Source: Gilvimarinus algae
GTDB taxonomy: Bacteria; Pseudomonadota; Gammaproteobacteria; Pseudomonadales; Cellvibrionaceae
Length of the DNA: 64,000 nucleotides
Assembly (NCBI RefSeq): GCF_030518215.1
Contig: NZ_JAULRT010000052.1
Span: 1-64,000 of the forward strand
Direction of reading: 5' to 3'
The notes under the pieces were generated by a model. That model saw only the letters and a program-made list of their open reading frames with translations. It did no database searches and was not told the DNA's origin. The position numbers were made by a program, and so were the translations under genes. Shown piece by piece: positions 22,954 through 46,153 of the stretch; within the stretch, counting starts at the first letter, position 1; the number at the start of each line of letters is the position of its first letter.

Positions 22954-25900
22954 ATGTATAGTAAATCCACGTTTAAGAAAAAGCTGATCGTGTCGGCTAT
23001 TGCCTCGACCGCGCTCGCTGGTCTGAGTCAGACTTCTCTGGCTCAGGACGATGCGGCGTTGGAAGAGGTGGTCGTCACGGGTATCCGCGCGTCTCTCGAT
23101 CGCGCCATGGATATCAAGCGTGACTCAACCGGTGTTGTCGATGCTATTTCGGCCGAAGACATCGGTAAAATGCCCGATGCCAACTTGGCAGAATCGCTAC
23201 AGCGTATCGCCGGTGTGTCCATTACCCGTACCAACGGTGAAGGTGCCCGCGTAACTGTCCGCGGTATTGACCCATCTATGAATATGGTCACCCTAAATGG
23301 CCGTAATATGCCTTCTGTGACCAACGATGCCGGTGTTGGTGACCGCGCTAGCCGTGCCTTTGATTTCGCGGCTTTGGCGGCTGAAAGTGTAAGCGGGGCA
23401 GAAATCTATAAAACTGGCCGTGCCGACCTCTCAGGCGGTGGTTTGGGTGCTACTATCAACCTGAAGACATTGCGCCCTTTGGATGTGGGAGATATCAAGG
23501 CTACCGTTGGTGCTAAAGCGGTTCACGATACTACTATTGGCCGTGACGGCGATGGTCGCGAAGTTACCCCAGAGGTTTCTGGCGTTTTTAGCTGGGCAAA
23601 TGACGAAGAAACCTTCGGTGTTGCACTGAGTGCCTCCTATCAGGAGCGCGACAATGTTCGCTCTAACGCGTTTGTAAACAACTGGCAAATGCGCCAGGTA
23701 AACGCCGATGGCAGCCTGCCGGGTATTGCAGACAGCGCCGTGATTACCAACCCGCTGTCTGCAGGTGACTATTACGCAACACCTACCGACTTACGTTTCG
23801 CTTTGGAAGACAATCACCGTGAACGTACCAACGGTCAGTTAACCATGCAGTTCCGCCCGGTTGATTCTCTGACTGCTACCGTTGACTACACCTATGCCGA
23901 ATACGAGCTGGATCAAAGACGTTCACAGCAGTCAACCTGGTACAACGAAAGCGCCATTGACGCCTTGACTTTCGACAGCAACCAAGAAGTTCACACGCCT
24001 GTTATCTACTCAAACGCATACTCTGTCGGTGCCGGTAAGGACGTGTCTTTTGCTGCACAGGACTATAACGGTACCACTACCTCTGAATCTGTCGGTGTAA
24101 ACCTTGAATGGAACGTTACCGATAACTTTAGCTTGGCGGTGGATTATCACGATTCGTCATCTAAGAACTACACCACTCAGACTGAGCTGGGCTTGAACGC
24201 GAACGTTGTGACTTCTGAGTACGCAGATTGGCGCAACGATTTGCCTGTTATGGGCATCACGTTTGATGACTCTCGTGAAGATAAGGGTAACAACAACGGT
24301 ATTCTCGATGGCGGCGACATGAGCTCTGCTATGGGGTCTGCTCGTTGGGACAGCACAGATGCTAATATTGAGCAGCTGCGTTTGGATGGTGCTTTGGATC
24401 TGGGTGGTTTCGCGTTCTTCGAACAAGTTGATATCACCTTCGGTGTTGAAGATCGCAAAGATCGCAACCATACTTTGATGAACAACGGTGAGTCTCCTCG
24501 CATTACCATGGGCAACTGGGGGGGGGTTGATCCGGATACCTTTGGCCCAGATTGGTCGAGCTATTTCGTTCCTCGTGATTTTGGTGAAGGTTTCCCGAGC
24601 TTCAGCGAATCTACCGGTGATTCTCAATTCTTGGATTATGGTTTAGAAGTTCGTGACTTCGATACTGTGGTACAAAATATTGAGTGGGTTTACGCTCAAG
24701 GCCTGAGCGATCCAGATATTGCGGCAAACTTCAACAACTTCCCGAACGGTCGCATTATGCCTAATGGTGTCATTAATACTGACCGCACCATTACCGAAGA
24801 GGTTCAAGCGTACTACGTTCAGTTTGCCGGTGGTTTCGATATTGCGGGTATGGCCTCGAACATCGTAGTTGGCTTGCGTCAGGAAGAGACTGAGTTAACC
24901 TCAGAAGCTGTTACGCTGCTTCCGACCAACCAAAGCTGGGATGGCGATGATGACTGGTCATTGGTTTACACCGGCGGTGGTGAGGGTGTTGCCGTTGCTA
25001 CAAATGAATACGACAATTTCTTGCCAAACGTTGATTTTGACATCGCGTTGACCGAAGACATCAAGCTGCGCGCGTCTTACAGCATCACTATTGCTCGTCC
25101 GTCGTACAACAATCTTCGTTCCAACATTAGCCTTGACAGTCAACTAAACAAGCAGGCCAGTGCGGGTAACCCAATGCTGACTCCTCTGGAGTCTGAGAAT
25201 CTGGACTTGTCGGTTGAATGGTACTACGGCGATGCGAGCTATGTGTCTGCTGCGATATTCCAAAAAGAAGTGTCTGACTTCATTGGTACCACTGTAGATG
25301 ATCTGCCAGCGTATAACCTGCGTGATATTCGCGAAGGGCCACGTTTTGATCAGGCCATTGCAGACATCAACGCCGCTCGTGCCAACGACGAGACAAACCG
25401 TGATGGAACCCTGTGGGATCCAAACAACCTGGCTCACCAGCACGACATGATGTTGATCAATGAAGGCTTGGACCCCAATAACGAGTCAACCGCTGTTCGC
25501 CCGGATAGCTCTGACCCGATTCAGTTGTGGGCTACTACCAACCCGAGCAACTTCCGCGATGACACCATTACCGGTGCGGAGCTGTCGCTGCAGCACTTCT
25601 TTGGCGAGTCTGGTTTCGGCGTTCAGGCTAACTACACATTTGTGGAGTCTGACCTGAACGTAGACAACACCAGTCAGGAAGAGCAGTTTGCCATGCTGGG
25701 TGTGAGTGACACGGCTAACTTGGCGTTGATCTACGATCAGGACCGCTTGCAGGCTCGTGTGACCTACAACTGGCGTGATTCTTACCTGACTAGCTTGGCG
25801 CAAGGTGGTAATAACGCACCTGGCTATGTAGCAGAGTACTCACAAATCGACTTCTCCATCAGCTACGATGTAACCGACAATGTTACTCTCTCCGCTGAAG

Positions 25901-26013: not shown

Positions 26014-26070
26014 CCTCGTGTTGGCAGGCTAGGGCCGGACAGGTGGGTTTTGTCTGGCTATGAGTTGAAA

Positions 26071-26096
26071 AGCCGCTGGAAACAGCGGCTTTTTTC
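26071..26096 (+). terminator. Terminator after receptor 1
   Basis: AGCCGCTG, loop GAAA and CAGCGGCT are followed by TTTTTTC. It lies between receptor 1 and halogenase A1, so the halogenases are either expressed at a lower level by read-through or have their own promoter. Confidence 0.85.
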
Positions 26097-26133
26097 ATGG
26101 AGAATCCATCAGATAGAGTAATTCGGCAGTCTG

Positions 26134-27684
26134 ATGATGATAAAAAATATTGTAGTTGTCGGCGGTGGCACCGCCGGCTGGTTGAGTGCGGGCCTGTTGG
26201 CCGCTGAGTACAGTGCGGGAGAGAGTCCGATTAAGGTGACTTTGATTGAGTCGCCCGATGTACGAACCATCGGTGTGGGTGAGGGCACCTGGCCGACCAT
26301 GCGTTCGACGTTAAAGCGTATCGGCATTTCTGAAACTGCCTTTCTTACCCGCTGTAGCGCGTCGTTCAAGCAGGGCTCCAAATTTGTAGGTTGGCGCACC
26401 GGCGAGGCCGCGGACGCTTACTACCACCCGTTTAGCCTGCCCACGGGCTTTGGTGAGACGGATATGCACGAGCTGTGGCGCCAGTGCTACCCCGATAAAG
26501 CCTATGACCGGATTGCCGGCATACAGGCGGCGGTGTGCGAGCGTCAGCTGGCTCCCAAGCAAATCACCATGCCGGAGTACGCCGGCGCCCTGAATTACGG
26601 TTATCACCTGGATGCCGGCAAGTTCAGTGAGCTCTTGCGCGAGCATTGCACTGAGCGCCTCGGGGTTAGCCACATTCGCGATCATGTGGAGCAGATCATC
26701 AGTGCGGACAATGGCGATATCGCCAGGGTAAAAACGCGCGAGCATGGCGATCTGGTTGGCGATTTATTTATTGATTGCACCGGCACTCACAGCCTTTTAT
26801 TGGGTGGGCACTATCAGGTGCCCTTTATCGACTGCAGCCGTTACTCGGCCAATGACCGGGCCTTGGCTGTGCAAGTGCCCTACGAGCAAGAGGACGCACC
26901 GATTGCCAGCGCCACCGTAGGCACGGCGCACTCGTCGGGTTGGAGTTGGGATATCGGCCTGTCATCCCGACGCGGGGTGGGCTATGTCTATTCCAGTGCG
27001 CATATCGATGACGACAGCGCCCACGCCGAGCTAGTGGCGCACCTGAGCCGCTCAGTGGATGCGTCTGTGATCAAAGACCTGAGCTTTCGCAGCCTCACCA
27101 TCGAGGCAGGCCACCGTGATCGTTTTTGGGTGAATAACTGCGTCGCGGTGGGCATGTCGGCGGGCTTTATCGAGCCGCTTGAAGCCTCGGCTCTGGCGCT
27201 TGTTGAGCTTTCGGTTGCCATGATCCGCGATGAGCTGCCGCAGAGCCAGGCGGCCATGGCGATTACCGCCCGGCGTTTTAACGACATCTTCCGCTATCGT
27301 TGGCAGCGAATCCTGGAATTTCTCAAGCTGCACTATGTGCTGTCTGAGCGGCGTGACACGGCTTACTGGCGCGATATGACCGCGCGCGACACTGTGCCTC
27401 CGGGGCTTTTGGAGTACCTGGAATTGTGGCGTTATCGTGCACCCTACACGCGGGATTTTTTGCATACCGAAGAACTTTTCCCTGCGGCCAGCTATTTATA
27501 TGTGCTCTACGGTATGGGTTTTACCGGAGAAGCCTGCGCACCGGTAAAGGCGTCTGTTGATTTAAGTAAGGCCCAGCAACTGTTCGAAGAAGACGAGCGC
27601 AAGCGACAAAAATACGAAAAAGCCATACCGACTAATCGTGAACTACTGAATGCGGTGGCGCGCTATGGCATGAAGAAAATTTAA
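26134..27684 (+). CDS. Flavin-dependent halogenase-family protein, subfamily A (A1)
   Basis: A 516-residue cytoplasmic protein of the tryptophan halogenase family. FAD motif GGGTAGW is at 11-16. K79 in SFKQGSKFVGW and E347 in GFIEPLEAS match the catalytic Lys and Glu of tryptophan halogenases in motif and position. The signature WxWxIP reads W270-S-W-D-I-G, with Gly for Pro. Members near TonB receptors have unknown natural substrates; some relatives brominate indoles in vitro. It closely resembles A2 (34786). Two ATGs (26134, 26137) compete and the ribosome site is weak. B1 follows after 63 bases. Confidence 0.85.
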   Translation: MMIKNIVVVGGGTAGWLSAGLLAAEYSAGESPIKVTLIESPDVRTIGVGEGTWPTMRSTLKRIGISETAFLTRCSASFKQGSKFVGWRTGEAADAYYHPFSLPTGFGETDMHELWRQCYPDKAYDRIAGIQAAVCERQLAPKQITMPEYAGALNYGYHLDAGKFSELLREHCTERLGVSHIRDHVEQIISADNGDIARVKTREHGDLVGDLFIDCTGTHSLLLGGHYQVPFIDCSRYSANDRALAVQVPYEQEDAPIASATVGTAHSSGWSWDIGLSSRRGVGYVYSSAHIDDDSAHAELVAHLSRSVDASVIKDLSFRSLTIEAGHRDRFWVNNCVAVGMSAGFIEPLEASALALVELSVAMIRDELPQSQAAMAITARRFNDIFRYRWQRILEFLKLHYVLSERRDTAYWRDMTARDTVPPGLLEYLELWRYRAPYTRDFLHTEELFPAASYLYVLYGMGFTGEACAPVKASVDLSKAQQLFEEDERKRQKYEKAIPTNRELLNAVARYGMKKI

Positions 27685-27747: not shown

Positions 27748-29232
27748 ATGGAACAAGCGGTTAAAAAGGTGGTGATCGCCGGAGGTGGCACAGCGGGCTG
27801 GATGGCCGCCTGTGCACTGGTCTCGCAGTTGGGGCATTGTCTTGACATCACGCTGGTTGAATCGGAAGAGATTCCCACCGTCGGTGTGGGTGAGGCCACG
27901 ATACCGACCATGCAAACCTTTCATTTGTTGTTGCAGTTGTCCGAACAGGAGTTTATGCGGGCGACGCATGCCACCTTTAAACTCGGGATTGAGTTTGAAA
28001 ACTGGGGCGCTCTGGGCGACAAATATTTTCACTCTTTTGGCGAAACCGGTCGCGAGTTTTGGGCGGGGCAGTTCCAGCATTTTTGGCTGCGCTCGCGCAA
28101 AGAGGGCAGTGAGTATCAGTATGCCGATTATTCGGCCGAAGCGCAGGCTGCGAAGGCAGGGAAATTTGCCATCACCAAAAACCCGCGTCTGGGTTTTGCC
28201 TACCATCTGGATGCGGGGCTCTATGCAAAATACTTGCGTCAGGTGAGCGAGAGCCGCGGCGTCACGCGTATTGCCGGTACCATTCAACAGGTCGTTTTGC
28301 ACGACAACGGCTTTATCAAGGCGTTGCGGCTGGCCGATGGGGCAGAGGTAGAAGGGGATTTGTTTATCGATTGCAGTGGTTTTCGTGGGCTCTTGATTGA
28401 GCAAGCGCTGCACACCGGTTACGAAGACTGGTCCCATTACTTTCTCTGTGATCGCGCAGTGGCGGTGCAAACGCGAAGCACCGGCGAGCCTTTGCCCTAT
28501 ACCCGGTCTATTGCGCATGAGGCAGGCTGGCAGTGGCGTATCCCCCTGCAACATCGTGTGGGTAACGGCTTGGTGTTTGCCAGCAAGTACATGAGCGACG
28601 ATCAGGCCCAGGACCTGCTCCTGCGTAATGTGTCCGGCAGCACTTTAAACGAGCCGAGAGTAATCGGTTTCAAGCCGGGGCGGCGAAGAAAGAGCTGGAA
28701 TAAAAACTGCGTCGCCCTGGGGCTGTCCAGTGGCTTTATTGAGCCACTGGAGTCCACCAGTATTCATCTCGTTTCGTCGGCCTTGGTGCGATTGATGCGT
28801 ATGATTCCTTTCACTGGTTTTCATCAGGTGGATATTGATGAGTTTAACCGCCAGTCATCGGCTGAACTTGATAATCTTCGGGATTTCATCATTTTGCATT
28901 ACAAGCAAACGGATCGTAATGACAGTGAGTTTTGGCGCTACTGCCGCTCAATGACCGTCCCTCAAACGTTGCAAACCCGCATGGATATCTACCGCGATTC
29001 CGGACGGATTTTCTGGTCTGCCGATGAGTTGTTCACCGTGAATTCCTGGAACCAGGTGATGCTTGGTCAGGGTTTGACCCCGCTACACTATCACCCGGCG
29101 ACAGACAATATTCCGGCGGCGGACTTTGAGCGAGTGATGCAAGGCTACCACCAGACGGTGAAGCAGTTTGTCGAAAAAATGCCCAGCCACCAGGCGTTTA
29201 TCGACAGCTATTGCAAGTCAGATTTGGTCTAG
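27748..29232 (+). CDS. Flavin-dependent halogenase-family protein, subfamily B (B1)
   Basis: A 494-residue cytoplasmic protein with FAD motif GGGTAGW (12-18). K78 in TFKLGIEFENW is the likely catalytic Lys, the motif W-Q-W-R-I-P is canonical, and the Glu lies in GFIEPLEST. It pairs with A1 in one transcript and is the paralogue of B2 (33305), of the same length. Subfamily B has Glu where A has a second Lys (KLGIEF against KQGSKF), suggesting a different substrate pocket. GGAG sits very close to the ATG, so the start is slightly uncertain. Halogenation itself is unproven. Confidence 0.85.
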   Translation: MEQAVKKVVIAGGGTAGWMAACALVSQLGHCLDITLVESEEIPTVGVGEATIPTMQTFHLLLQLSEQEFMRATHATFKLGIEFENWGALGDKYFHSFGETGREFWAGQFQHFWLRSRKEGSEYQYADYSAEAQAAKAGKFAITKNPRLGFAYHLDAGLYAKYLRQVSESRGVTRIAGTIQQVVLHDNGFIKALRLADGAEVEGDLFIDCSGFRGLLIEQALHTGYEDWSHYFLCDRAVAVQTRSTGEPLPYTRSIAHEAGWQWRIPLQHRVGNGLVFASKYMSDDQAQDLLLRNVSGSTLNEPRVIGFKPGRRRKSWNKNCVALGLSSGFIEPLESTSIHLVSSALVRLMRMIPFTGFHQVDIDEFNRQSSAELDNLRDFIILHYKQTDRNDSEFWRYCRSMTVPQTLQTRMDIYRDSGRIFWSADELFTVNSWNQVMLGQGLTPLHYHPATDNIPAADFERVMQGYHQTVKQFVEKMPSHQAFIDSYCKSDLV

Positions 29233-29911
29233 CCCGTTAAAAGTCCTTTCGTTCCCTTTTCTTACACGTAGGCAAGCGCCGAGCTCACAGGGTAGTGGTT
29301 GGTCGGTTTTTAGCCTGCCCGGTGCCGGCTCTTCCTTCTGTTATCGTTATCTGTTCAACAAACGCCTTCTTTGCGGATTATTTTTTTGTATTTCCTTTTT
29401 TCTTGTCTACTCTTATTTATAAGCTTTATCCGCTCATTGGCTCGTTTGGTTTACCTTTGACAGTGGCGCATGAATGTTGGCTTGCAGTGGCGCAAGAATG
29501 TAAAGCTGGATCAATAATAATGATAAGGAATGTGTATTTCCCCAAGGCGTGAGGACAGGATGCATCACTACTTTAAACTCCCGGTGCCCGACAAGCCTTT
29601 ATTCCCAGGCCCCGATATCAAGGGCGGTTGGTGAATGCATTTAGAGTTTCGTTGGCGGCGTGTAAATCATTGTAAAAAAATTGTTGAATCCGTTTGCGCA
29701 ATGACGTACATTGTTCCAGATAAAGTCAAATGGACTAAAAGATAAATGTGTGGCCATCGGACCACAGCGCTGAAGGTAATGCTCAATGCCTCAGGTAGTT
29801 TAAGAATCCAGCAAGGTTTGCCGAATCGGTTAAGAGCCGGTTGGGTCGCTGGCGCGTATCCGCTAAATGGGTGGCGAAACCATATTCCCAATGATAATAA
29901 AGGAGAGCCTC
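29233..29911. other. Intergenic region upstream of receptor 2
   Basis: A 679-base gap with no convincing gene. The first 200 bases are T-rich. No GTAA-N4-TTAC site was found here, unlike upstream of receptors 1 and 3. The last 30 bases carry the shared leader GATAATAAAGGAGAGCC before the receptor start. It probably contains a promoter that I cannot fix. Confidence 0.55.
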
Positions 29912-32900
29912 ATGTATAAGAAAAGTAACTTTAAACGCAAGCTGATCGCATCGGCGGTGGCTTCCTGTGCGATGTCCGGGCTAGGTACCGTGGCGGTCGC
30001 ACAGGAAGACGCCTCTATGCTGGAAGAGGTGGTGGTTACCGGTATCCGGGCCTCTCTGGATCGCGCGATGGACATCAAGCGCGACTCTGCCGGCGTGGTA
30101 GATGCGATCTCGGCAGAGGATATCGGTAAGTTCCCCGATTCCAACCTGGCCGAATCGCTTCAGCGTATTACCGGTGTGTCGATCGACCGTCGTAACGGTG
30201 AAGGTTATCAGGTAACGGTTCGCGGCTTTGGCCCGCAATTTAACCTGGTTACTGTTAATGGTCGCGCACTGCCCACCAGCCGTATCAATATCTCGAAAAG
30301 TGGTGGTGGTGGCGCAGCCGCCGACCGTGGCTTTGATATGAGTAATATTGCGGCCGAGGGTGTCTCTGGTGTTCAGGTGTATAAGACGGCACAGGCCTCC
30401 ATCCCTACCGGTGGTATCGGTGCTACGGTCAACCTGGAGACCCGTCGTCCTTTTGATACCGAAGGCTTCACCGCCACTGTCGGTGCCAAGGCTCTGCACG
30501 ACACCACTGTTCGTGTAGGCGATGACATCACCCCGGAATTCTCTACCTTCCTGAGCTGGTCTAACGACATGTTCGGTGCCTCGGTTGCCTTTACGCATCA
30601 AGAGCGTGACAGCGCCCAGACCGGTGTGTTCACCAACTCTTACTCTGCCTACTCTGGCGCCTGGACCGATGCCTCTTTCATTGAGAGCGTGCCTTACGTT
30701 TCCGGTGGTTCCGAGCCATCAATTGGCGCTGGTGATGTGGATGTGTTTAACCCGCCCACCGTTGGTCAACAAACCAACATCACTCAGGGTGTTCGCTACT
30801 ACCACGAAGATCGCGAGCGTACCCGTGACAACGCTCAGGTGACTCTGCAGTTCCGTCCTATGGAAAACCTGACGGGTACTTTGGATTACACCCGTGCTGA
30901 GCAGGAAGTCAAAATCAACGGCTCCGAGTTGTCGTTCTGGTTTGGCGGCGGTACCTTCCCGACCACAGATGTTGAGTTTGATGGTCACCCAGAAGCCGCT
31001 GCACCGGTTTACCTTTGGGCCGAAAACCCGACGGGTGTGGTACGCGACCTGGGTATTACCCAAAATGGTGGCGGCTTCAACAACACACTCGAGTCGACCG
31101 GTATTAACATCGAGTTCAACGCCACCGACACACTGACCTTCACTTTGGATGCTCACCACTCAGAGTCTGAAAGTCTCCCGGCTGACGGCATGGTCGGTGG
31201 TTACTTCAATATTGGTCTTGGTGCACAGGGTGTATACGGCCAAGGTTACGATATGTCTGGCGACCTGCCTTTGCTGGTTGGCGTGTTTGAAGACGATCAC
31301 CGCGACGGTTCCGGCGACTTCGGTTTGGTTGAAAATGAGCTGGATGTGGGCGATTTGGGTTCTACCGTTCGCCAGATCTGGAACCCGCGCACTACCAGTG
31401 AAATGGATCAGATCCGTCTGGACGGTGAGTGGGAATTCAGCGATCGGGGCTCTATCAACTTTGGTATCGAAAGCCGCAAAATGGAGTCTAGCCAGCTGAA
31501 CTCTTTCAACCAGCAGGTGCTTGAAGGTAACTGGGGTGTGGGTACGCCCGGTGATGTTCCGCCCGAAATGATGGACAGACTGGATTACGCCGATCTGTTC
31601 GACGGTTACAGCACTACTCTGGACTCTGACGCACAGGCGTTCTTCGATCAGGCGGGTGTTGACGGCAACAATACCGGTGCCATGGCACAAGTCTTTACCA
31701 CTGGCTGGATTGCTCACGACACGTCTGAGCTGGGTCGCTACCTCTCTTCTAATGTTGGCCTTGAGTGGGAACCCAACCCGGACAATAACGAAAACCGCAC
31801 CATTGAAGAAGAAATCAATGCTGCCTACATCCAGGCTTCTTACCAGTTCGATATCGGCGATATGCCCTTGGATATCTTGGCTGGTATCCGTTATGAAGAA
31901 ACTGATGTCACTTCGATTGGTCAGGTGGCAGGGTCTACCATTTTGTGGCAGGGCGACAACGACTTGACCACCCAAGCCGGTAGCGTAGCCTCAGCGCCGA
32001 TTGAAATCGGTACTGGTTCTTACGACAATGTTCTGCCGAGCATTGCCTTGTCGTTGGGCGTGACCGAAGACGTAATTGTCCGTGCGGCTTACTCTGAAAC
32101 CATTTCGCGCCCGTCTTACAACAACCTGCAGGCGGGTATCAACGGTGTTCAGGCGCCTAACGGCGGTCCGACCATTCTCGGTGCCATGGCAGGTACTGCG
32201 CAAAACGGTAACCCGGCTCTGGATCCACTGGAGTCCAACAACTACGACCTGTCTGTGGAGTGGTACTACGGCGATTCAAGTTACGCGTCTATCGGTTACT
32301 TCTATAAAGATGTACCGAACTTTGTGGGTACCTCGGTTACTCCAACGCCGCTTAACTCAGAAAATACGCTCAACCCGGTACTCGACCCCACCAACGGGCC
32401 GCGTGCACAGGCTGCGATTGACGAGTTGAACAGCCGCGGAATTCCAGTGAACCAACAAAGCTTGTTCCGCATGATTGCGTCCATGAACCTGGTGCCAGGT
32501 GCCTGTATCGAGGCCTACAACCAAGAGGGCGAAACAGCGGCCAACTCGGCTTCTTGTGGCGACCCCTATGACGCCTGGGAATATGAAGGCACTGCCGGTT
32601 GGGAAGACAACATCGACTTGGTGGCTGTCTCCGAAGGTGAGTACATGGATCCGACCTACACGGCAAACGTGAACTTCCCGGTCGGTAGCAAGTCTGCCAC
32701 TCTGGATGGTTGGGAGCTTGCGGTTCAGCACTTCTTTGGCGAAAGCGGCTTCGGTGTTCAAGCCAACTACACCATTGTTGATGGTGACATCTCCTATGAC
32801 ATCACCGGCAGCCCGACGGCCAGTCAGTTTGCTTTGACCGGTTTGAGTGACTCCGCCAACCTGGTGTTGATTTACGAGAAAAATGACTGGTCTGGACGTC

Positions 32901-33151: not shown

Positions 33152-33183
33152 GCACACCGTTTAGAAAGAGTGTAGTATTATGA

Positions 33184-33211
33184 ATGCCGCCCCTCGGGGC
33201 GGCATTTTTTA
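33184..33211 (+). terminator. Terminator after receptor 2
   Basis: ATGCCGCCCC, a short loop and GGGGCGGCAT are followed by six Ts. As with receptor 1, it separates the receptor from the halogenase genes behind it. Confidence 0.88.
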
Positions 33212-36360: not shown

Positions 36361-37079
36361 TGAATCTTGATGAAAGCATTTTGTCGATTGCCCCCAATGT
36401 GAGCATTCAGTGTGGGCAAGCCGGCCTTGAGGGCGAGCCCTATATCCAGGTGGATAATTTCATCGAGGGGGCAGAGCGGCTAAAAGCCTATGCAGTAGAG
36501 CATGGCGCATTCGCACCGGCCGATAGTTATTACCCAGGCATTCGCGCGGCGGTACCTCTTATTTACACCGTGGCGCTGGCGAAAAATCTCAGCGGTTATA
36601 TCTCGCGTTATTTCGGCTTTCACCCGAGGCACGTAAAAAAGGCGGTGTCGACTTTTTCTATTGTCACTCAGGCGCCGGAGTCGCTCAGCCTGTATCAGCG
36701 TCTGCCGCACTTTGATGCCCCCTCCAGGCTCAGCTTGGCCGCCATTCACTATCTGGGTGCAGACGAGGGCGGCGGCACAGCTCTTTACCGGCATCGCAAC
36801 ACGGGGTTTGAATATGTGGATGCCGAGCGCTACCAGCCCTACATGGCGGCGATACACCAACAGTTTGCCGACCCGCAGGGTTATCCACCCGGCTATATTC
36901 ACGGCGACACAGATGCTTTTACTCAGATCCACGCGTTTGCAGCGCGTTTTAATCGCCTAGTGCTCTACCGCGGTTCCAGCCTTCACTCGGGTGTCTTGCC
37001 CCAAGACTACAGCTTCGATCCTGACCCTGCCACTGGCCGCCTGACCGTCACTACCTTTATTGAGTTTTCCGGCACTTAG
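36360..37079 (+). CDS. DUF6445 protein with oxygenase-like motif, copy 1
   Basis: A 239-residue soluble protein of the DUF6445 kind often found beside TonB receptors and halogenases. It shows an Fe(II)/2-oxoglutarate oxygenase-like pattern: H117-x-D119 in LPHFDAP, H209 in SSLHSG, and R227 in GRLTVTTF, on strands spaced as in a double-stranded beta-helix. I infer a hydroxylase-like activity, with substrate unknown. The start ATG (36360) overlaps the A2 stop by one base. A second copy lies at 39069. Confidence 0.7.
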   Translation: MNLDESILSIAPNVSIQCGQAGLEGEPYIQVDNFIEGAERLKAYAVEHGAFAPADSYYPGIRAAVPLIYTVALAKNLSGYISRYFGFHPRHVKKAVSTFSIVTQAPESLSLYQRLPHFDAPSRLSLAAIHYLGADEGGGTALYRHRNTGFEYVDAERYQPYMAAIHQQFADPQGYPPGYIHGDTDAFTQIHAFAARFNRLVLYRGSSLHSGVLPQDYSFDPDPATGRLTVTTFIEFSGT

Positions 37080-37224: not shown

Positions 37225-37959
37225 ATGACTAAGCATGTATTGCTCAATAATATTGCCCACAAAGACCTGAAAGTCATTACCCGCCACAGCCCCGATTACG
37301 GGGATAATATCAGCGCCGTATTGACCTTCCCGACTGAGTTTGCAGACGTGCAGCGCGAATATCCCATCTTGCTAAGAAAGGATGATACCACCGGGGATTT
37401 TCAGGCCGTCGCGCTGCTGGGGCTCGCGAAGAACGATAATCTTTTTCTGGAAGACGGGGGCTGGCAGGCCAGCTACGTACCAGCGATTATGGCGCGCGGC
37501 CCTTTTTTAATTGGCTTTCAGGAGCAAGAAGTCGAGGGTGAGGTCCGCCGCGAAGCGGTCATTCATGTGGATATGGACGATCCCCGGGTCAATGACACCG
37601 AGGGCGAAGCCGTCTTTCTGGAGCACGGGGGCAACTCGCCTTATCTCGAGCGCATAGTCACAGTGCTCAATGGCATTCACAGTGGCATGAGCTACGCAGC
37701 GGCTATGTACCAGGCGCTGGCGGAGTTTGAGTTGATTGAGCCGGTCAATCTGAATATTCAGGTCAGTCAAGACGAGCAGTACAGTCTGAGCAACTTCTAC
37801 ACAGTCAGCGATGAGAGGCTTGCTGCACTCGACGGCGACACTTTGGTGAAATTGAATCGCGCCGGCTTTCTGGAAGGGGCTTACCTGATCAAGGCCTCAC
37901 TGACAAACATTAAAACGCTGATTGAGCTCAGACGTAAAAGGCTGGCGCAGCGGGCTTGA
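37225..37959 (+). CDS. SapC family protein
   Basis: A 244-residue protein of the SapC family, named after a Campylobacter S-layer-associated protein; the family is common in receptor/halogenase loci. Typical segments are LLRKDDTTGDFQAVALLGLA, GGWQASYVPAIMARGPFLIG and the C-terminal IKASLTNIKTLIELRRKR. There is no signal peptide. The biochemical role is unknown. A 145-base gap before it leaves room for an internal promoter, and GGAA lies 8 bases from the ATG. Confidence 0.88.
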   Translation: MTKHVLLNNIAHKDLKVITRHSPDYGDNISAVLTFPTEFADVQREYPILLRKDDTTGDFQAVALLGLAKNDNLFLEDGGWQASYVPAIMARGPFLIGFQEQEVEGEVRREAVIHVDMDDPRVNDTEGEAVFLEHGGNSPYLERIVTVLNGIHSGMSYAAAMYQALAEFELIEPVNLNIQVSQDEQYSLSNFYTVSDERLAALDGDTLVKLNRAGFLEGAYLIKASLTNIKTLIELRRKRLAQRA

Positions 37960-37986: not shown

Positions 37987-39018
37987 ATGACGTTAATACA
38001 AAAAAAGACCCGTGTGCTTGAGGGTGTGACGCCGCAGACCGTGCCCTACGAGGATCTTATGCGCGCCCAAGAGCCGGTCGTTTTAAAAGGGCTGGTGCAA
38101 GACTGGGGGCTGGTCAACGCGGCTCGAAAGTCACACCGCGAGGCTATGGCCTATCTCAAGTCTTTTTATAACGGCCGAACGGTGGGCTCCTACTGGGCCG
38201 GGCCGCAAGTTCAAGGTCGCTATGGATACAACGAGGCCTTTACCGGGTTTAATTTTGAGTCCCGGCGTGTGCCTTTGACCGAAATGCTCGACAGTATCGG
38301 CGAGCACATGGATGATGAGCGTCCGCCGTCGCGGTACGTGGGCTCGACGACTATAGACGCTTGCCTGCCGGGGTTTCGCGCCGAGAACGACTTACCGTTT
38401 ACCCATCCGATGTTTGCCGAGAATACGCCGCTGGCGAGCATCTGGCTCGGCAATCCCTCGTTGATTTCAGCGCATTATGATGCGCCCAATAACATGGCCT
38501 GCTGCGTGGTGGGCAAGCGACGTTTTACCCTGTTTCCTCCCGAACAAATTGACAACCTCTACCCAGGGCCACTGGAGCCCACACCTGGTGGTCAGGCGAT
38601 CAGCCTGGTGGATTTCTCCAATCCGGATTTTGAGCGCTTTCCCAAGTTCCGTCAGGCGATTGAAGTGGGGCAGGTGGCGGATATGGAGGCCGGCGATGCG
38701 CTTTTTTATCCCAGTATGTGGTGGCATCAGGTCGAGGGGCTGGATCGCTTTAACGTGATGATCAACTACTGGTGGAACACCTCACCGGCGTTTATGGGAA
38801 CCCCCATGAATGTGCTCAAGCACGCTTTGCTCAGTCTGCGCGACAGACCGGAACACGAGCGCCGCGCCTGGCGCAGCGTCTTTGATTACTATGTGTTCGG
38901 CGATGTGGAAGCTTCACGTGAGCATATTCCGGAGCACGCCCGCGGTGAGTTGGCGCCTCTGGACGATGCGAGGGCCAGGCAACTGAGAGCCTGGCTGATC
39001 AACCGCCTGAATCGCTGA
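37987..39018 (+). CDS. JmjC/cupin_8 family oxygenase of the receptor locus
   Basis: A 343-residue cytoplasmic protein. The Fe(II) ligands are H163-x-D165 in ISAHYDAP and H247 in WWHQVEG; K177 in GKRRFTLFPPEQ is the likely 2-oxoglutarate contact. JmjC proteins of this type hydroxylate protein side chains or small molecules. It starts 27 bases after sapC and is followed by the second DUF6445 gene. It is a paralogue of 15358-16386. With the two DUF6445 proteins it gives the locus three candidate Fe(II) oxygenases. Confidence 0.87.
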   Translation: MTLIQKKTRVLEGVTPQTVPYEDLMRAQEPVVLKGLVQDWGLVNAARKSHREAMAYLKSFYNGRTVGSYWAGPQVQGRYGYNEAFTGFNFESRRVPLTEMLDSIGEHMDDERPPSRYVGSTTIDACLPGFRAENDLPFTHPMFAENTPLASIWLGNPSLISAHYDAPNNMACCVVGKRRFTLFPPEQIDNLYPGPLEPTPGGQAISLVDFSNPDFERFPKFRQAIEVGQVADMEAGDALFYPSMWWHQVEGLDRFNVMINYWWNTSPAFMGTPMNVLKHALLSLRDRPEHERRAWRSVFDYYVFGDVEASREHIPEHARGELAPLDDARARQLRAWLINRLNR

Positions 39019-39068
39019 TCAATAGGTCTATCGCGCGGCGCTGATAGGTGCAGAACACGGACGGTGTT

Positions 39069-39767
39069 ATGACTTTCGAAAAACACGATCATTGCCAACT
39101 TCAGGTGGTCACGCTTGGGCGCGAGGGGGCCAAGCTGCTGGTGATTGATCAGTTTATTGATAAGCCCGACTCTCTGGTAGAGCAGGCCGCCGGTGCTCAC
39201 TATGCGCCTGCAGGTATGGCTTATCCGGGCCTGCGCGCGGTGGCTCCGCGCGCCTATCAGGACTTTATCATGAGTCAGTTGGCTGGGCTGCTGCGCGAGC
39301 ACTTTGATGCCTGTGTTCGCTCTTTTCGGCTGATGATGTGCCACTACTCGCTGGTAACCACACCGCCAGAGCAGCTGGTGCTGGCGCAGCGTATTCCTCA
39401 TGTCGATACCCTGGGCCCCGATGGCTTTGCCACGGTCCACTATTTGTTTCAGCAGCCCTATGGCGGCACGGCTTTCTACCGTCACAAGGCGACGGGTTTT
39501 GAAACCTTGGATGAATCGCGCAAGGCGACGTACTTTCAGGCCCTGGAGGCTGAGAGTCGAGGCTCTGCCGCCCCCCCGCCCAGCTATATCAATGGCGATT
39601 CGCCGCAGTTTGAGCAAATCGAACGGCGCGAGGGCCTGTACAACCGGATATTGATTTACCGCGGAAACTCTCTTCATTCGGGTTGTATCGATAAGCGCTT
39701 TCTTCCCGATGCGGACCCACGTAGCGGTCGGCTGACCCTCAACAGCTTCGTGGCCGCCCTGCGTTAG
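39069..39767 (+). CDS. DUF6445 protein with oxygenase-like motif, copy 2
   Basis: A 232-residue paralogue of 36360-37079. The same pattern is kept: H111-x-D113 in IPHVDTLG, H203 in NSLHSG, and R221 in GRLTLNSF, plus the conserved YRHKATGFE and YINGDSPQFEQI segments. Conservation of exactly these residues between divergent copies supports a metal-site role. ATG at 39069 is preferred; a GTG at 39048 is possible. It closes the second halogenase operon. Confidence 0.7.
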   Translation: MTFEKHDHCQLQVVTLGREGAKLLVIDQFIDKPDSLVEQAAGAHYAPAGMAYPGLRAVAPRAYQDFIMSQLAGLLREHFDACVRSFRLMMCHYSLVTTPPEQLVLAQRIPHVDTLGPDGFATVHYLFQQPYGGTAFYRHKATGFETLDESRKATYFQALEAESRGSAAPPPSYINGDSPQFEQIERREGLYNRILIYRGNSLHSGCIDKRFLPDADPRSGRLTLNSFVAALR

Positions 39768-40130: not shown

Positions 40131-43100
40131 ATGAATAACAAAACAGGCTTTAGAAGAAAACTCATCGCTTCGGCTGTGGCTTCTTGCGCTCTGACGGGTG
40201 GTTACGCCCAGGCGCAGGAGCAGGCCATGCTGGAAGAGGTGGTGGTTCGCGGCGTTCGCGCTGCTCAGGAAACAGCGGTCAATATCAAGCGCGATGCCGA
40301 TGCCGTGGTCGATGCGATATCGGCGGAGGATATCGGTAAGCTTCCGGATGCCACCATCTCTGACTCCCTGCAGCGCATTCCCGGTATTCAGATTCGCCGC
40401 TCCGCTGGTGAAGGGTCATCGGTGAACATTCGCGGCTTGCCCCAGGTCATTACCCAGCTCAACGGCGAACAATATCTGGGCGCCAACTCGGTAGTATCCA
40501 CTCAGCCGAACTTTGGTGACATTCCTTCACAGCTCTTTAAGGGCGCGGATGTTTACAAATCGGCCATTGCTCGCCTGGGCAACACTGGTATTACCGGGAC
40601 CATTGACCTGAAAACCTACCGCCCCTTTGACTTTGATGAGGGGCTGACCCTCGCGGGCGGCGTCGAAGCGCAGTATGGCACCGAAACCGAAAAAACCGAC
40701 CCTTTTATCAACGGTCTGATCAACTGGCAGAATGAAGACGTGGGTTTTATGCTGGCCGCCAGCTACGCCAATGTGAATCTGTCCAACTCGTACAATGGTA
40801 TTAACACTGGGTCTCCCGGCGACGCGGGTTGGACCAGTCGCTTTGCCGATACGGCGGTAGGGCAGGAGGATTTGGGGCGTCGCTATGTTGGCTCCCAGGG
40901 TTTCTCCGCCTGGAATCAGGTAACTGAGCGTGAGAGGTTGGGGGTTAATTCGTCCTTCCAGGCTGACCTCGGCGAGGGTTTTATTTTTACCGCCGACTGG
41001 TTTTACACCGATCAGGACGAGTACAACCGCAAAGTGGGAATGAGCGCGACCAACAAGTGGCAGGGTGATAACTGGTTTGTGCCCACCCAGGAGCGAGCGA
41101 CAGGCACCACTATCGACGGCGGCGAATTCTACTCTTGGCAATCGGCAGAGCTTTCGCCGAAAAGGCTTAAGTCTTTTACCCAAAACGATGTGTTTGAGTC
41201 CTCATCCAACAACCTGAATCTGCAGCTCGATTACGACAACGGCGGCGCCTTTACCGGTAGCTTCCGCGCCGTAATGGGCGAGGCAGAGCGCAAGAAGCGT
41301 CACGGCTACAACGAGGGGGATCTGACCAATGGCACGACCACTGGCATTAACCCTTACACCTGGTCCATTAACGATGATCCAACCTCCGAAGGTTATGTAG
41401 CGCTGGATGATCGACGCCCACCGGGCTTTTTCCCGGCCAGCTACTGTGAGGCGGGTGATCTGGTGCTGGGTGATCAGGGCGGTTGCTTTAAAACCATCAA
41501 TCCGCTGGGCTACAGTGAAAACCCGCAGATCACCTACGACACGACCACCGAGCACCCCACCTGGAGTGGCTTTGACCGGCCGCTGGCCGGTGGACTTGGC
41601 AGTGGCGCCACCATCGCCGACTACATGGCCAACCTCGATAGCTACAACGTCGGTGCCTTCTCCTCGGAGAACAATGAAAACTCCGAGGGCAGCCTGCAAG
41701 CCTTTAGCCTGAAAGGTAACTACCGTTTCGATGAGGGCTTTATCACCAGCGTGGACGTGGGCATTCGCTCCAGTCAGCGCACGGCGGAGTTCGAGCGCTA
41801 TAACTTATTCTCGCCCTTCTATGAAAATGGCTGCGAGGCTCAGTGGAAGGCCACCGATGTTCAGCTGCACGCCGGCCCCTGCCAAGAAGGTGAAATGGTT
41901 ACGGGCACACTCAACGGCTACGAGATTGAGGACAGCTTTGTCGGTTACACCGTTTTGCCGTACGTAGGGCTTAACGAGTACAACAACGCTATCTGGGTAA
42001 CGGATTTTGGCCCTGTGAACGGCATTCCCGGCATGTGGGCGGTGGATCCGGCCGATTACGACGACCCCGAGGCCTTCCACAATCGTGTGTTTGGCTCGAC
42101 CAGCAAGCACGTGATTCCCGGTAGCACCTTTGATGTGGATATGGACGAGCTGTCTTACTTTGCTCAGGCGAATTTCGAGGCCGGAGGCTTCCAAGGTAAC
42201 TTGGGTGTGCGCGTGGTGGAAACCGAGCTGGTGGTCAAGCAAAACATCGCCGGCCCACAGAAAGATTACGGTAATACCAACGTGGACACCGGTGATCTGG
42301 TGACCCGCCGTGACTATACCGATGTGCTGCCGACGCTCAACCTTGGCTACTGGTTCAATGACTCGCTGGTACTGCGTTTTGCCTACGGTGAGAACATGGT
42401 GCCGCTGGATCTGAATCAGTACGGTGACGGCTTGACCCTGAACACCACCATCGACACCGAGGCCGGCAGCCCGACCCAGGGGCAGTTTATCGTCAGCGGC
42501 GGGTCTCTGGCGGGTAACCCCGGGCTGGACCCCTGGCGCTCCACCAACTACGACCTCTCGGTAGAGTGGTACACGGGCGCCGCCAGTGTCTTGAGCGCCG
42601 CGATATTCAAGGTGGAGATAGACAGCTTCACTGAATCCACCACGGTGCAAATGCCGCAGCCCGACGCAGACGGAGTCATCCGCCGCGAGGTGCCGATCAC
42701 GACGTTGGTGCAGGGTGAGGGCGGTACTCTGGAAGGGGCAGAGCTGGCCGCGAAAATCGCTTTTGGCGACTTTATGGATGGCTTTATCGGTAACTTCGGT
42801 ATCGACACTAACTACACCTACTCGCCCAGCGAGGGGTCGGGTGACGATATCTTCGGTGAGAAGAACCTCTTCCCCGATAACTCCGAGCACCAGTTCAACC
42901 TGACCACCTGGTACCAGGGCGATAAGTTCCAGGCTCGGATTGCCTACAACTACCGCAGTGAGCGCCTGGCGGCGCTCGGTGGCGGGGCCTGGGGTGCTCT
43001 AAACCTCTATCAGGAGGCGGCTGCCTACGTAGACGTGTCTGCCAGTTACGACATTACCGAGGCCATCACGCTCTACGCCTCCGGCTCCAATGTTACCGGC

Positions 43101-43196
43101 GAGTACGAAAACTACTACCTGGGCTTTGAAGATCAGTACGCCTTCCAGAACTACTACGAACCGCGCTACACCATGGGGGTACGCGCCCGCTTCTGA
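40131..43196 (+). CDS. TonB-dependent receptor 3, carbohydrate type
   Basis: A 1021-residue outer-membrane receptor. It has a signal peptide to about 28 (AQA), TonB box EEVVVRG, plug motif VVDAISAEDIGKLPDATISD and SVNIRGLPQVITQLNG, and a barrel ending in RARF. Compared with receptors 1 and 2 it has a different plug interior and loops, so its ligand is probably different. It shares their leader and ribosome site. The GH3 glucosidase gene follows after a terminator, which suggests uptake of beta-glucan or related oligosaccharides. Confidence 0.93.
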   Translation: MNNKTGFRRKLIASAVASCALTGGYAQAQEQAMLEEVVVRGVRAAQETAVNIKRDADAVVDAISAEDIGKLPDATISDSLQRIPGIQIRRSAGEGSSVNIRGLPQVITQLNGEQYLGANSVVSTQPNFGDIPSQLFKGADVYKSAIARLGNTGITGTIDLKTYRPFDFDEGLTLAGGVEAQYGTETEKTDPFINGLINWQNEDVGFMLAASYANVNLSNSYNGINTGSPGDAGWTSRFADTAVGQEDLGRRYVGSQGFSAWNQVTERERLGVNSSFQADLGEGFIFTADWFYTDQDEYNRKVGMSATNKWQGDNWFVPTQERATGTTIDGGEFYSWQSAELSPKRLKSFTQNDVFESSSNNLNLQLDYDNGGAFTGSFRAVMGEAERKKRHGYNEGDLTNGTTTGINPYTWSINDDPTSEGYVALDDRRPPGFFPASYCEAGDLVLGDQGGCFKTINPLGYSENPQITYDTTTEHPTWSGFDRPLAGGLGSGATIADYMANLDSYNVGAFSSENNENSEGSLQAFSLKGNYRFDEGFITSVDVGIRSSQRTAEFERYNLFSPFYENGCEAQWKATDVQLHAGPCQEGEMVTGTLNGYEIEDSFVGYTVLPYVGLNEYNNAIWVTDFGPVNGIPGMWAVDPADYDDPEAFHNRVFGSTSKHVIPGSTFDVDMDELSYFAQANFEAGGFQGNLGVRVVETELVVKQNIAGPQKDYGNTNVDTGDLVTRRDYTDVLPTLNLGYWFNDSLVLRFAYGENMVPLDLNQYGDGLTLNTTIDTEAGSPTQGQFIVSGGSLAGNPGLDPWRSTNYDLSVEWYTGAASVLSAAIFKVEIDSFTESTTVQMPQPDADGVIRREVPITTLVQGEGGTLEGAELAAKIAFGDFMDGFIGNFGIDTNYTYSPSEGSGDDIFGEKNLFPDNSEHQFNLTTWYQGDKFQARIAYNYRSERLAALGGGAWGALNLYQEAAAYVDVSASYDITEAITLYASGSNVTGEYENYYLGFEDQYAFQNYYEPRYTMGVRARF

Positions 43197-43218
43197 TTCG
43201 CTTGTGTCGACTTTGACA

Positions 43219-43244
43219 ACGCCCTCTACGGAGGGCGTTTTTTT
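43219..43244 (+). terminator. Terminator after receptor 3
   Basis: ACGCCCTC, loop TACG and GAGGGCGT are followed by seven Ts. All three receptor genes end with such a structure. Confidence 0.9.
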
Positions 43245-43543
43245 GACTTCACCCCTTGGAATTTACCCGACTTACCCCTGAAAGGGCACCATGCTGCTAT
43301 AATTGACAGCGCTAGCAGTGCCCCGCTTGCGCCCAGTGTTTTGCCCGGATCAATGGCCGAGAGCGGCACGCCCAAACACTGTTTGGATAAAAATAACCCA
43401 GTTTGGGGCAGCGATGATCAATTGTAAGAGTCCACTTTGTGCTATTTCAGGATGTGGGTCGCCTCGATGATATCAGTGAGCGTAAGCTCCGCCCGTGCGC
43501 GTGACCTTCCACGTACCAATAACGAGAGCTATAAGGAGCCGAT
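43245..43543. other. Intergenic region upstream of the GH3 gene
   Basis: About 299 bases without a gene. It should contain the GH3 promoter; TATAAT at about 43298-43303 is a candidate -10 box. AAGGAG lies just before the GH3 start. No palindrome of the GTAA-N4-TTAC type was seen. Confidence 0.45.
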
Positions 43544-46153
43544 ATGGCGATAAAGTCACTCCAGCGCCTGACCATGACAGGCGCGATACTGGCGGCATTG
43601 ACCGCGTGCCAGTCTTCAGAAAAGGCAGAAGACGCCTCCCAGGCCGAAGCCGCCTCCACGCCCCAGCCGAGTCAGGCCAGCGCCGTCGAGTGGCCGCGCA
43701 TTGAGAGCGAGGTGGCAAAAGACCCCGCCGTAGAGGAGCGGGTAGAGCAGCTGCTGGCAAAAATGACCCTGGAAGAAAAAGTCGGCCAGATGATTCAGCC
43801 GGAAATTCGCCATCTGACGCCTGAAGACGTCACAAAATACCATATAGGCTCGGTCCTGAACGGCGGTGGCTCCTTCCCGAATGCTGATAAATACGCCAAG
43901 GTTGAAGACTGGCTTGCCCTGGCCGACGCTTATTACGAGGCCTCTGTGGATACCTCCGGTGGCCGCGCGGCCATTCCCATTATGTGGGGTACCGATGCCG
44001 TACACGGGGTGGGTAACGTGATTGGCGCCACCCTGTTTCCGCACAATATTGGTCTGGGCGCCACCCACAACCCCGAGCTTCTCAAGCAGATTGGCTGGGC
44101 CACGGCTCGTGAGCTTTCGGTGACCGGTATTGACTGGGACTTTTCGCCCACCGTGGCCGTCGCGCGCAATGAGCGCTGGGGCAGAACCTACGAGTCTTGG
44201 GCCGAGGGGCCGGAAATCGTCGGTGATTACGCCGGGGAAATGGTGCGCGGCCTGCAGGGCGAGCCCGGCAGTGACGAGTTTATGGGCGAGGGCCGTATTA
44301 TCGCCACCGCCAAGCACTTTATCGGTGACGGCGGTACCAAAGACGGTATTGACCGCGGTGACACCACCGGTGATGAAGTTCACCTTCGCGATGTTCACGG
44401 CGCCGGCTACTTCACCGCTATTGAGGCGGGGGTGCAGGCGGTCATGGCTTCCTTTACCCGCTGGGATGGCATTCGCATGCACGGGCACAAGTATCTGCTG
44501 ACCGATGTGTTGAAAGAGCAGATGGGCTTTGATGGCCTGGTCGTGGGAGACTGGAGTGGCCACAGCTTTGTGAAAGGCTGCACAGCTACCAATTGCCCCG
44601 CCTCGGTCAACGCTGGCCTGGATATTTTTATGGCGCCGGATCCCGACTGGAAAGAGCTCTTTGCCAATACGGTGCAAAACGTCAAAGATGGCGAGATCGC
44701 CATGAGCCGCATCGACGATGCCGTGCGCCGCATTTTGCGAGTTAAAGTGCGTGCGGGGCTGTTTGAAGCTGGCAAGCCATCGTCCCGTCCGCTCGCCGGT
44801 AAGGCGGAGCTTCTGGGCGCGCCAGAGCACCGAGAGATCGCCCGTCAGGCCGTGCGCGAGTCTCTGGTGATGCTGAAAAACACCGATGGTCTCTTGCCTT
44901 TATCGCGCGACATGAAGGTACTGGTTACCGGTGATGGCGCCGACAATATCGGTAAGCAAGCCGGCGGCTGGTCAATCTCCTGGCAGGGCACTGGCAACAA
45001 GAACTCGGATTTCCCGGGCGCCCAGTCTGTTTATGACGGCATCAAAGAAGCGGTTGAAGCCGGCGGTGGCAACACCGAGCTGAGCGAAGACGGCAGCTTT
45101 GCCAGCAAGCCGGATGTGGCCATTGTGGTCTTTGGTGAAGACCCCTACGCTGAAATGCAGGGCGATGTGCCGCACCTGGCCTACGGCCGCGGCGATACCA
45201 GCGACCTGGAAATGCTCAAATCCCTGCAGGAGCAGGACATTCCGGTCGTATCTTTGTTTATTACCGGCCGGCCGTTGTGGGTTAATCGTGAGCTGAACGC
45301 TTCCGACGCCTTTGTCGTGATCTGGCAGCCCGGCACCGAAGGTGGCGGTGTCGCCGATGTAATCTTCCGCAACAACGCCGGTGAAATCAACCACGACATG
45401 AGTGGCCAGCTTTCCTTCTCTTGGCCCAAGCGCCCGGATCAGGTGCCCCTGAATGTGGGTGATGAGGATTACGATCCGCTGTTTGCCTACGGCTTTGGTT
45501 TGACCTACGCCGATACCGACACCCTGGGTGACAACCTCTCTGAGGAAGGCTTGAAGAAAACCGAAACCAGCGATGTACTGACACTGTTTAACCGCCGACC
45601 TATCGATCCCTGGGGGATTGAAGTGGTGGGCGCCGAAAACGATCGCGTGGTCATGGACAGCAAGTCAGTCTCTACTTCTACCGTGACGGTGACCGCGGTG
45701 GATCGCAACGAGCAGGAAGACGCTCGCCAGGCGGTCTGGAATGGTAAGGGTCCGGGTCATGTGGCCTTGTTTGTCGATGAGCGTCAGGACTGGTCAGAAT
45801 ACCTCGCCGACCAGGCAGCCCTGATTTTTGACATCAAGGTGGACAAGGCGCCTACAGCAACAACGTATTTGCGTCTGGGCTGCGGCTCTTACTGCGCCTC
45901 CGATATTGAGATGACCGAGGGTATGCGTGAGCACCTCGATGGTACTGGCTGGCAGACGGTCTCCATCGACCTTAATTGCTTCCCCACTGCGGGCGCCAAC
46001 TTTGGTTTGTCGCAACCGCAGGAAGAGTTTATTACCCAGGTGATTCGCCCCTTCACGATTTACACAGAGGGTGAACTGGATATGAGCTTTGCCAATGTCC
46101 GGCTGGAAAAACACAAAGCCGCCAGTGCTTTGGTGAACTGCCAGAATCAGTAA
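43544..46153 (+). CDS. GH3 exo-beta-glucosidase lipoprotein
   Basis: An 869-residue lipoprotein with lipobox LTAC (Cys22). The GH3 N-domain (about 60-410) has nucleophile D336 in VVGDWSGH and substrate-binding KHFIGDGGT. The GH3 C-domain (about 430-640) follows, and a C-terminal galactose-binding-like sandwich of the ExoP type (about 680-865) ends the protein. Homologues are exo-1,3/1,4-beta-glucan glucohydrolases that release glucose. It probably degrades oligosaccharides imported by receptor 3 or held at the outer membrane. AAGGAG precedes the ATG. Confidence 0.92.
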   Translation: MAIKSLQRLTMTGAILAALTACQSSEKAEDASQAEAASTPQPSQASAVEWPRIESEVAKDPAVEERVEQLLAKMTLEEKVGQMIQPEIRHLTPEDVTKYHIGSVLNGGGSFPNADKYAKVEDWLALADAYYEASVDTSGGRAAIPIMWGTDAVHGVGNVIGATLFPHNIGLGATHNPELLKQIGWATARELSVTGIDWDFSPTVAVARNERWGRTYESWAEGPEIVGDYAGEMVRGLQGEPGSDEFMGEGRIIATAKHFIGDGGTKDGIDRGDTTGDEVHLRDVHGAGYFTAIEAGVQAVMASFTRWDGIRMHGHKYLLTDVLKEQMGFDGLVVGDWSGHSFVKGCTATNCPASVNAGLDIFMAPDPDWKELFANTVQNVKDGEIAMSRIDDAVRRILRVKVRAGLFEAGKPSSRPLAGKAELLGAPEHREIARQAVRESLVMLKNTDGLLPLSRDMKVLVTGDGADNIGKQAGGWSISWQGTGNKNSDFPGAQSVYDGIKEAVEAGGGNTELSEDGSFASKPDVAIVVFGEDPYAEMQGDVPHLAYGRGDTSDLEMLKSLQEQDIPVVSLFITGRPLWVNRELNASDAFVVIWQPGTEGGGVADVIFRNNAGEINHDMSGQLSFSWPKRPDQVPLNVGDEDYDPLFAYGFGLTYADTDTLGDNLSEEGLKKTETSDVLTLFNRRPIDPWGIEVVGAENDRVVMDSKSVSTSTVTVTAVDRNEQEDARQAVWNGKGPGHVALFVDERQDWSEYLADQAALIFDIKVDKAPTATTYLRLGCGSYCASDIEMTEGMREHLDGTGWQTVSIDLNCFPTAGANFGLSQPQEEFITQVIRPFTIYTEGELDMSFANVRLEKHKAASALVNCQNQ

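Follow-up and report, generated by a model that had tools for sequence, protein, structure and literature searches.

The 64,000-nucleotide stretch of Gilvimarinus algae DNA analysed here (the window) carries at 22954-46153 a block of genes, all on the + strand, with three TonB-dependent receptors of the TIGR01782 (TonB-Xanth-Caul) family, four flavin halogenase-family (Trp_halogenase) genes, two DUF6445 genes, one SapC gene, one Cupin_8 gene and one gene of glycoside hydrolase (GH) family 3. We propose that this block is a protein-tailoring module of carbohydrate-type TonB receptors, the substrate of which is most simply the receptor precursor, and we assign to this reading a probability of about 0.4. 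The co-location of receptors and halogenases is more than local chance, and their pairing is stable, with halogenase lineages following receptor lineages. An earlier, sequence-only reading of the window had listed the same genes, all of which were found in place, and had suggested them as a candidate oxidative tailoring system. This interpretation is partly supported, as the active-site residues and folds fit it, while the reaction itself is predicted.

The Gilvimarinus algae genome contains 22 halogenase-family genes by Pfam and 27 receptors over the TIGR01782 cut-off, 13 of which have halogenases nearby. The low ends of all 21 full-length halogenases (21/21) lie at most 3,413 bases from a TIGR01782 match, against a background of 10.8% of the genome within 8 kb of such a match; the 22nd Pfam match (C26:35 kb, locus L005, 17 bits, two rows) is a weak relative and was excluded from this count. 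In six other genomes, where scoring covered all halogenase candidates and 231 of 247 receptor candidates, 40 of 43 halogenases are found within 6 kb of a receptor match. A survey of 249 genomes of the phylum, Gilvimarinus algae included, gave halogenases (E ≤ 1e-40) in 24, receptors (E ≤ 1e-90) in 32 and both in 22, which corresponds to receptors in 22 of 24 halogenase genomes vs 10 of 225 halogenase-free ones, uncorrected for relatedness. At 62 halogenase loci of other genomes, with at most six candidates scored per genome, 91 distinct halogenase open reading frames (ORFs) were identified, 81 with a receptor within six genes and 38 directly adjacent to one. Starting from DUF6445, the best 80 of 126 relatives in named genomes gave 79 loci, some sharing a genome and some cut by contig ends, with a halogenase in 60, a receptor in 60, Cupin_8 in 47, SapC in 45 and all four in 36. 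The sequence-only reading had made its proposal depend on co-occurrence beyond chance, and by all these counts the families co-occur strongly. The gene order receptor-SapC-Cupin_8-halogenase-DUF6445 recurs in Rheinheimera, Paraglaciecola, Microbulbifer, Gilvimarinus and others.

Two further observations concern the layout of these loci. At L186 (G321 C1:1686162-1691942), two tandem receptor matches lie within one open frame of 1959 residues, beside a halogenase and SapC. At ten halogenase loci (L112, L119, L123, L133, L146, L148, L161, L162, L164 and L166) the stretch holds no TIGR01782-type receptor, and phmmer with a single ordinary TonB receptor, which is a weak test, found none there either.

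The inheritance of the linkage was followed on a set of 136 receptors that remained after near-identical rows had been removed; two ambiguous ones were set aside, leaving 102 linked and 32 unlinked sequences (134 in total). The linked receptors form five clades, A (24 sequences), B (3), C (4), D (18) and E (53), and the linked/unlinked state needs 8 changes on the FastTree tree, in which 33 of 131 inner branches are open, a number given without a null comparison. One of the window receptors (receptor 3, at 40131) is unlinked when plus or minus 4 genes are considered and linked at plus or minus 5 genes. Receptor and halogenase distances correlate with r = 0.645 (39 pairs from nine genomes, each contributing at least three), a value reached by none of 5000 within-genome partner shuffles (mean 0.04, maximum 0.38); a single genome with three pairs shows the opposite trend (r −0.76). 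On the tree of 89 type I halogenases (defined below), the receptor clade changes 7 times, vs at least 31 times in 200 shuffles. A type I halogenase is present near 24/24 clade A, 18/18 clade D and 47/53 clade E receptors. The linked clade A receptors had been chosen for having some halogenase near, and halogenase type played no part in the choice. The other partners vary with the clade: SapC is near 46/53 clade E, 2/3 clade B and 2/4 clade C receptors, and DUF6445 is near 37/53 clade E, 6/24 clade A and 2/18 clade D receptors.

The four halogenase-family genes of the window match Pfam PF04820 at 374.5-635.5 bits (cut-off 21) and all keep the equivalents of the catalytic Lys and Glu, which we take to be K79 and E346 of PrnA. 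They are of two types. The type I genes (27748-29232 and 33305-34789) have the Lys, the Glu, a Ser after the Glu and the motif WxWxIP, whereas the type II genes (26134-27684 and 34786-36360) keep the Lys and Glu but have an Ala after the Glu and WxWxIG. The top PDB sequence matches of the gene at 27748 are 6y1w (named putative tryptophan halogenase), 9luq and 6frl (BrvH), and that of the gene at 34786 is 2pyx. Across 192 halogenase-family sequences, the catalytic Lys is kept in 179 and the Glu in 181. Flavin halogenases make hypohalous acid, which attacks electron-rich rings. In addition, block proteins gave weak profile matches, all far below the cut-off, to QhpG, LodB and GoxB, which are flavoenzymes that mature or modify residues of a partner protein. 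Because of this weak resemblance and of the altered type II motif, it is possible that some of the flavoproteins hydroxylate rather than halogenate.

Eleven of the 192 halogenase-family sequences lack both the catalytic Lys and Glu and stand beside active ones, and 9/18 clade D receptors have one of these nearby. Such genes are found at L004:10980-12437 and L011:10728-12260, and also at loci L107, L116, L118, L121, L125, L130, L139 and L165. Their products are possibly non-catalytic partner subunits.

The two DUF6445 proteins (a, 36357-37079; b, 39048-39767) belong to what we predict to be a family of 2-oxoglutarate (2OG)-Fe(II) oxygenases. The HxD...H triad and the 2OG-binding Arg are present, with H118, D120 and R228 invariant and H210 in at least 90% of 51 sequences. 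The model of DUF6445 b, with a predicted local distance difference test score (pLDDT) of 95.4, shows the double-stranded beta-helix fold, and its best Foldseek match is HygX (E 4.4e-5, probability 1.00); HygX, ABH2 and AndA were matched at E 4e-5 to 3e-4 with probability 1.00, and the template modelling (TM) scores are mostly 0.4-0.5. The Cupin_8 (JmjC, FIH-like) protein (37987-39018) matches FIH and JMJD5, both protein hydroxylases, over about 110 core residues that include the iron-binding ones: the HxD...H triad (H163, D165 and H247) is kept, is invariant in four sequences and aligns with that of FIH. Where FIH has its 2OG-binding Lys, presumably K214, the Cupin_8 proteins differ in having an Arg (R178, invariant in the four sequences), with a Lys one position before it in the window protein. 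We count the matches to FIH and JMJD5, together with the weak ones to QhpG, LodB and GoxB, in favour of a protein substrate. The SapC protein (37225-37959) was confidently modelled (pLDDT 95.9), and neither the PDB nor the viral fold libraries gave a match at E ≤ 0.001; the best match of its profile to PDB sequences has an E value of 0.31. Independently of the role proposed for the block, the prediction of DUF6445 as a 2OG-Fe(II) oxygenase family and a confident SapC model for which no solved relative was found are useful on their own.

Elsewhere in the Gilvimarinus algae genome, a SapC gene (L185:9094-9858) and a DUF6445 gene (L012:7751-8536) stand away from any receptor over the TIGR01782 cut-off. 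At L009, a gene of the aspartyl/asparaginyl beta-hydroxylase family (11601-12554, − strand), possibly a further protein hydroxylase, adjoins a receptor with a type II halogenase and SapC.

The receptors and the GH3 protein begin with export signals, and none is apparent, by hydropathy and by eye, at the N-termini of the halogenase-like, DUF6445, Cupin_8 and SapC proteins. As no export signal was seen there, unlike in the receptors and GH3, we infer that the enzymes act in the cytoplasm, while the receptors and GH3 are exported. We further propose, at moderate strength, that their target is a protein and most simply the receptor precursor, still unfolded and awaiting Sec export. The receptor precursor is favoured because the enzymes look cytoplasmic, the receptor is their most constant neighbour and its precursor transits the cytoplasm unfolded. 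The flavoproteins would then halogenate or hydroxylate aromatic side chains, the 2OG oxygenases, where present, would hydroxylate other side chains, and SapC, in clades where it occurs, may assist by holding or presenting the substrate. In its full form, in which carbohydrate TonB receptors are halogenated and hydroxylated in the cytoplasm, prior to export, by enzymes that are inherited as a set with each receptor lineage, the proposal is tentative, with clearly less than an even chance.

The single families are known, and receptor halogenation would be a categorically new reading of them. If true, receptor modification would add a new type of maturation for outer-membrane proteins and provide the TonB-linked orphan halogenases with a substrate. 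Should the relatives described here modify receptors, they would represent a maturation step of outer-membrane transporters that ordinary proteomic searches would miss, as well as a source of protein-halogenating enzymes.

Several results weigh against this reading. Many related receptors do without the enzymes, as 14/27 in the Gilvimarinus algae genome have no halogenase nearby and 41/73 receptor match rows in the six other genomes have none within 6 kb (32/73 have one). In the other direction, 10/91 halogenases have no receptor in the stretch examined, and 15/79 DUF6445 loci hold none of receptor, SapC, Cupin_8 and halogenase. The set of partner genes varies, since SapC is near 0/24 clade A and 0/18 clade D receptors, and the co-inheritance of receptor and halogenase can also result from operon linkage alone. 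The arguments for the receptor as substrate are indirect, and the reaction is a prediction from sequence. Finally, searches in the receptors themselves for a mark of modification, either a residue or a leader, gave results that also count against it.

For the residue, receptor columns were compared first between 70 linked and 17 unlinked receptors, and then between 102 linked and 32 unlinked ones. The differences are clade-specific, and no aligned aromatic column was found that the linked clades A, D and E share and that unlinked receptors seldom have. Each clade could use its own site, and the loops align poorly, so the lack of a common column is not strong evidence. When five comparisons with unlinked kin, which overlap, were pooled, conserved aromatics had been lost at 23 of 83 positions vs 108 of 700 for other residues (Fisher p 0.008). 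Held-out linked receptors also lose aromatics more than other residues (A, 8.4% vs 5.8%; D, 9.0 vs 5.3; E, 6.8 vs 3.1), and with this similar ratio the aromatic loss was rejected as a modification signal.

As for the leader, the three window receptors have a nearly identical signal peptide, F[KR][KR]KLI.SA.AS (22954-23090, 29912-30050 and 40131-40260), although receptor 3 is of a different clade. A leader matrix was trained on 26 of the 53 clade E leaders. With receptor class assigned from titles and kinship, a score of at least 27 was reached by 7 of the 8 gammaproteobacterial receptors in clades B, C and D that are linked to the module, vs 1 of 27 unlinked ones; two of the seven, L110 and L006, are closely related and come from genomes of the same genus. 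Four clade A receptors that go with type II halogenases score 6.7-14.9, and no alphaproteobacterial receptor reached 28. On 43 new receptors the motif gave no separation, as the 7 with a module gene within 6 kb (one of which has Cupin_8 only) score 0.6-19.6 and the 36 without have a median of 7.35 (one-sided Mann-Whitney p 0.48), and it was rejected as a mark of the module.

The alternative that survives best, which we nevertheless consider unlikely, is that the enzymes build a halogenated and hydroxylated peptide or siderophore-like molecule, which is exported and then retaken by the neighbouring receptor. Natural-product pathways often contain halogenases and 2OG oxygenases, and a receptor is close to most of the halogenases studied here. 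Iyer et al. 2010 (NAR) are said to have noted jumonji-halogenase-receptor neighbourhoods and to have proposed halogenated siderophores. BrvH and the Xanthomonas campestris halogenases such as Xcc4156 act on indole, and the papers describe the native substrate as unknown and consider that it may be a peptide (PMC7336383, PMC5945002), which also counts in favour of the protein-tailoring reading. The same literature names MibH, a peptide halogenase that chlorinates Trp within its substrate peptide. The block, which is set beside MibH by description only, differs in that no precursor peptide gene was identified for it. Between enzyme and SapC genes there is little room for one, as the medians of these gaps range from −4 to 37 bases for the pairs counted, except for DUF6445-SapC (145 bases, 5 cases); beside receptors the median gaps are 96-363 bases. 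No precursor of the type of ribosomally synthesized and post-translationally modified peptides was identified at the gaps between enzyme genes, which are mostly too small, small ORFs elsewhere not having been surveyed; small ORFs are present at 29233-29866, between a type I halogenase gene and receptor 2. The condensation domain of nonribosomal peptide synthetases (NRPSs; PF00668) has no match in the Gilvimarinus algae genome, which makes an NRPS siderophore unlikely, genes for NRPS-independent siderophores not having been searched. The glycoside hydrolases, sugar transporters and LacI regulators among the neighbours also speak against this alternative.

It is similarly unlikely, and slightly more so, that the enzymes act on some other protein or peptide produced elsewhere, such as a glycosidase that is secreted or a small precursor encoded at an unlinked site, with the receptor merely co-regulated. 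The failed leader test, the lack of a receptor residue signature and the 15/79 DUF6445 loci without any of the four partners would all be accommodated in this way. A receptor that is only co-regulated agrees less well with its being the most constant neighbour of these halogenases and with a halogenase phylogeny that tracks it.

The glycan genes near the receptors also bear on these readings, and their variety around type I halogenases counts in favour of protein tailoring. These were tallied from up to 4 proteins of 220-1100 residues per receptor (3 for unlinked receptors) within 7 genes, for the 25 commonest families; 88/89 proteins were scanned for clade A, 67/67 for clade D, 95/95 for unlinked receptors and 86 for clade E, the latter from every second receptor (27/53), with five proteins dropped (three from the window, one from L001 and one from L120) and the window GH3 added by hand. 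Clade A neighbours (n=88) include the alpha-amylase family (18), GH3, LacI regulators and GH97; clade D neighbours (n=67) include GH10, GH43, GH16 and sugar transporters; and clade E neighbours (n=86) include GH3 with an Exop_C domain (8, window GH3 included), GH94, GH67, GH5 and transporters. One clade B locus carries GH20. Neighbours of unlinked receptors (n=95) include FecR, GH28, GH88, GH3 and others, with 1-2 matches each to GH3, GH20 and GH97. In the Gilvimarinus algae genome, 5 of 10 linked clusters (window, L003, L004, L006 and L009) have glycan-active neighbours, and the scan of neighbours at the remaining five turned up esterases, a nucleoside transporter or nothing clearly related to sugars. 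The carbohydrate reading is accordingly not universal.

The location of the enzymes in or near glycan uptake loci, the xylanase neighbours in clade D and the esterase genes at L002 would suit cytoplasmic enzymes whose target is an aromatic group carried by the imported glycan, for instance a feruloyl or another phenolic substituent. The receptors of clade A adjoin alpha-amylase and LacI genes, yet all 24 linked ones have a type I halogenase, and the usual ligands of alpha-amylase loci, starch oligosaccharides, carry no aromatic ring. Since receptors with type I halogenases are found next to alpha-glucan, xylan and beta-glucan genes alike, modification of the imported ligand is disfavoured, and we consider it improbable; of the three targets put forward in the sequence-only reading, which included an aromatic group on an imported ligand, it is the least likely. 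Even less probable is the absence of any common biochemical role, with halogenase genes carried along with receptor duplications, for although the linkage is inherited within receptor clades and degenerate halogenase copies exist, the catalytic Lys (179/192) and Glu (181/192) are kept and the receptor-SapC-Cupin_8-halogenase-DUF6445 order recurs across genera.

The block resembles the carbohydrate utilization (CUT) loci, which are recognized by a TIGR01782 receptor together with an adjoining glycoside hydrolase, here three receptors and the GH3 gene. The oxidative genes are an addition in the block; neither halogenase nor SapC occurs in the main text of the paper on the CUT loci (Blanvillain et al. 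2007). Likewise, in the main text of the BrvH and Xcc4156 papers the word TonB does not occur, nor does SapC in that of the BrvH paper. A literature search gave no paper describing this gene set among its results, most subscription papers being outside its reach.

Within the block, receptor 1 (22954-26013) and receptor 2 (29912-33151, in an ORF at 29867-33151) belong to clade E and receptor 3 (40131-43196) to clade C, and all three score over the TIGR01782 cut-off. Translation of receptor 2 probably starts at 29912, downstream of an AAGGAG. Between receptor 2 and the enzyme genes that follow it, a hairpin of 11 pairs and then a T-run are found at 33182-33207 on the + strand as a consensus match only, which could possibly be an attenuator that reduces enzyme expression relative to the receptor. 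The type I and type II genes downstream (33305-34789 and 34786-36360) overlap by 4 bases, as had been read before; the 1-base overlap given for the next gene, DUF6445 a, applies to a start at the ATG at 36360, and from the GTG at 36357 it becomes 4 bases. Promoter-like sites are not in excess (10 found vs 13.9 expected), and 32 terminator-like sites were found vs 21.7 expected. No inner-membrane sugar transporter or regulator was found among the window genes scanned, which are part of its ORFs.

Upstream and apart from the block, the window has a second Cupin_8/JmjC gene (15358-16386) and a transglutaminase-like gene (17635-18546), and no Pfam match was obtained for the intervening ORF (16543-17571). 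At the other end, the block closes with the GH3 glycosidase gene (43544-46153), which includes an Exop_C domain by Pfam and whose product is 82% identical to a protein assigned, by list position, to Gilvimarinus xylanilyticus (locus L060). Immediately downstream, on the opposite strand, lies a polysaccharide lyase family 14 gene (46377-47201).

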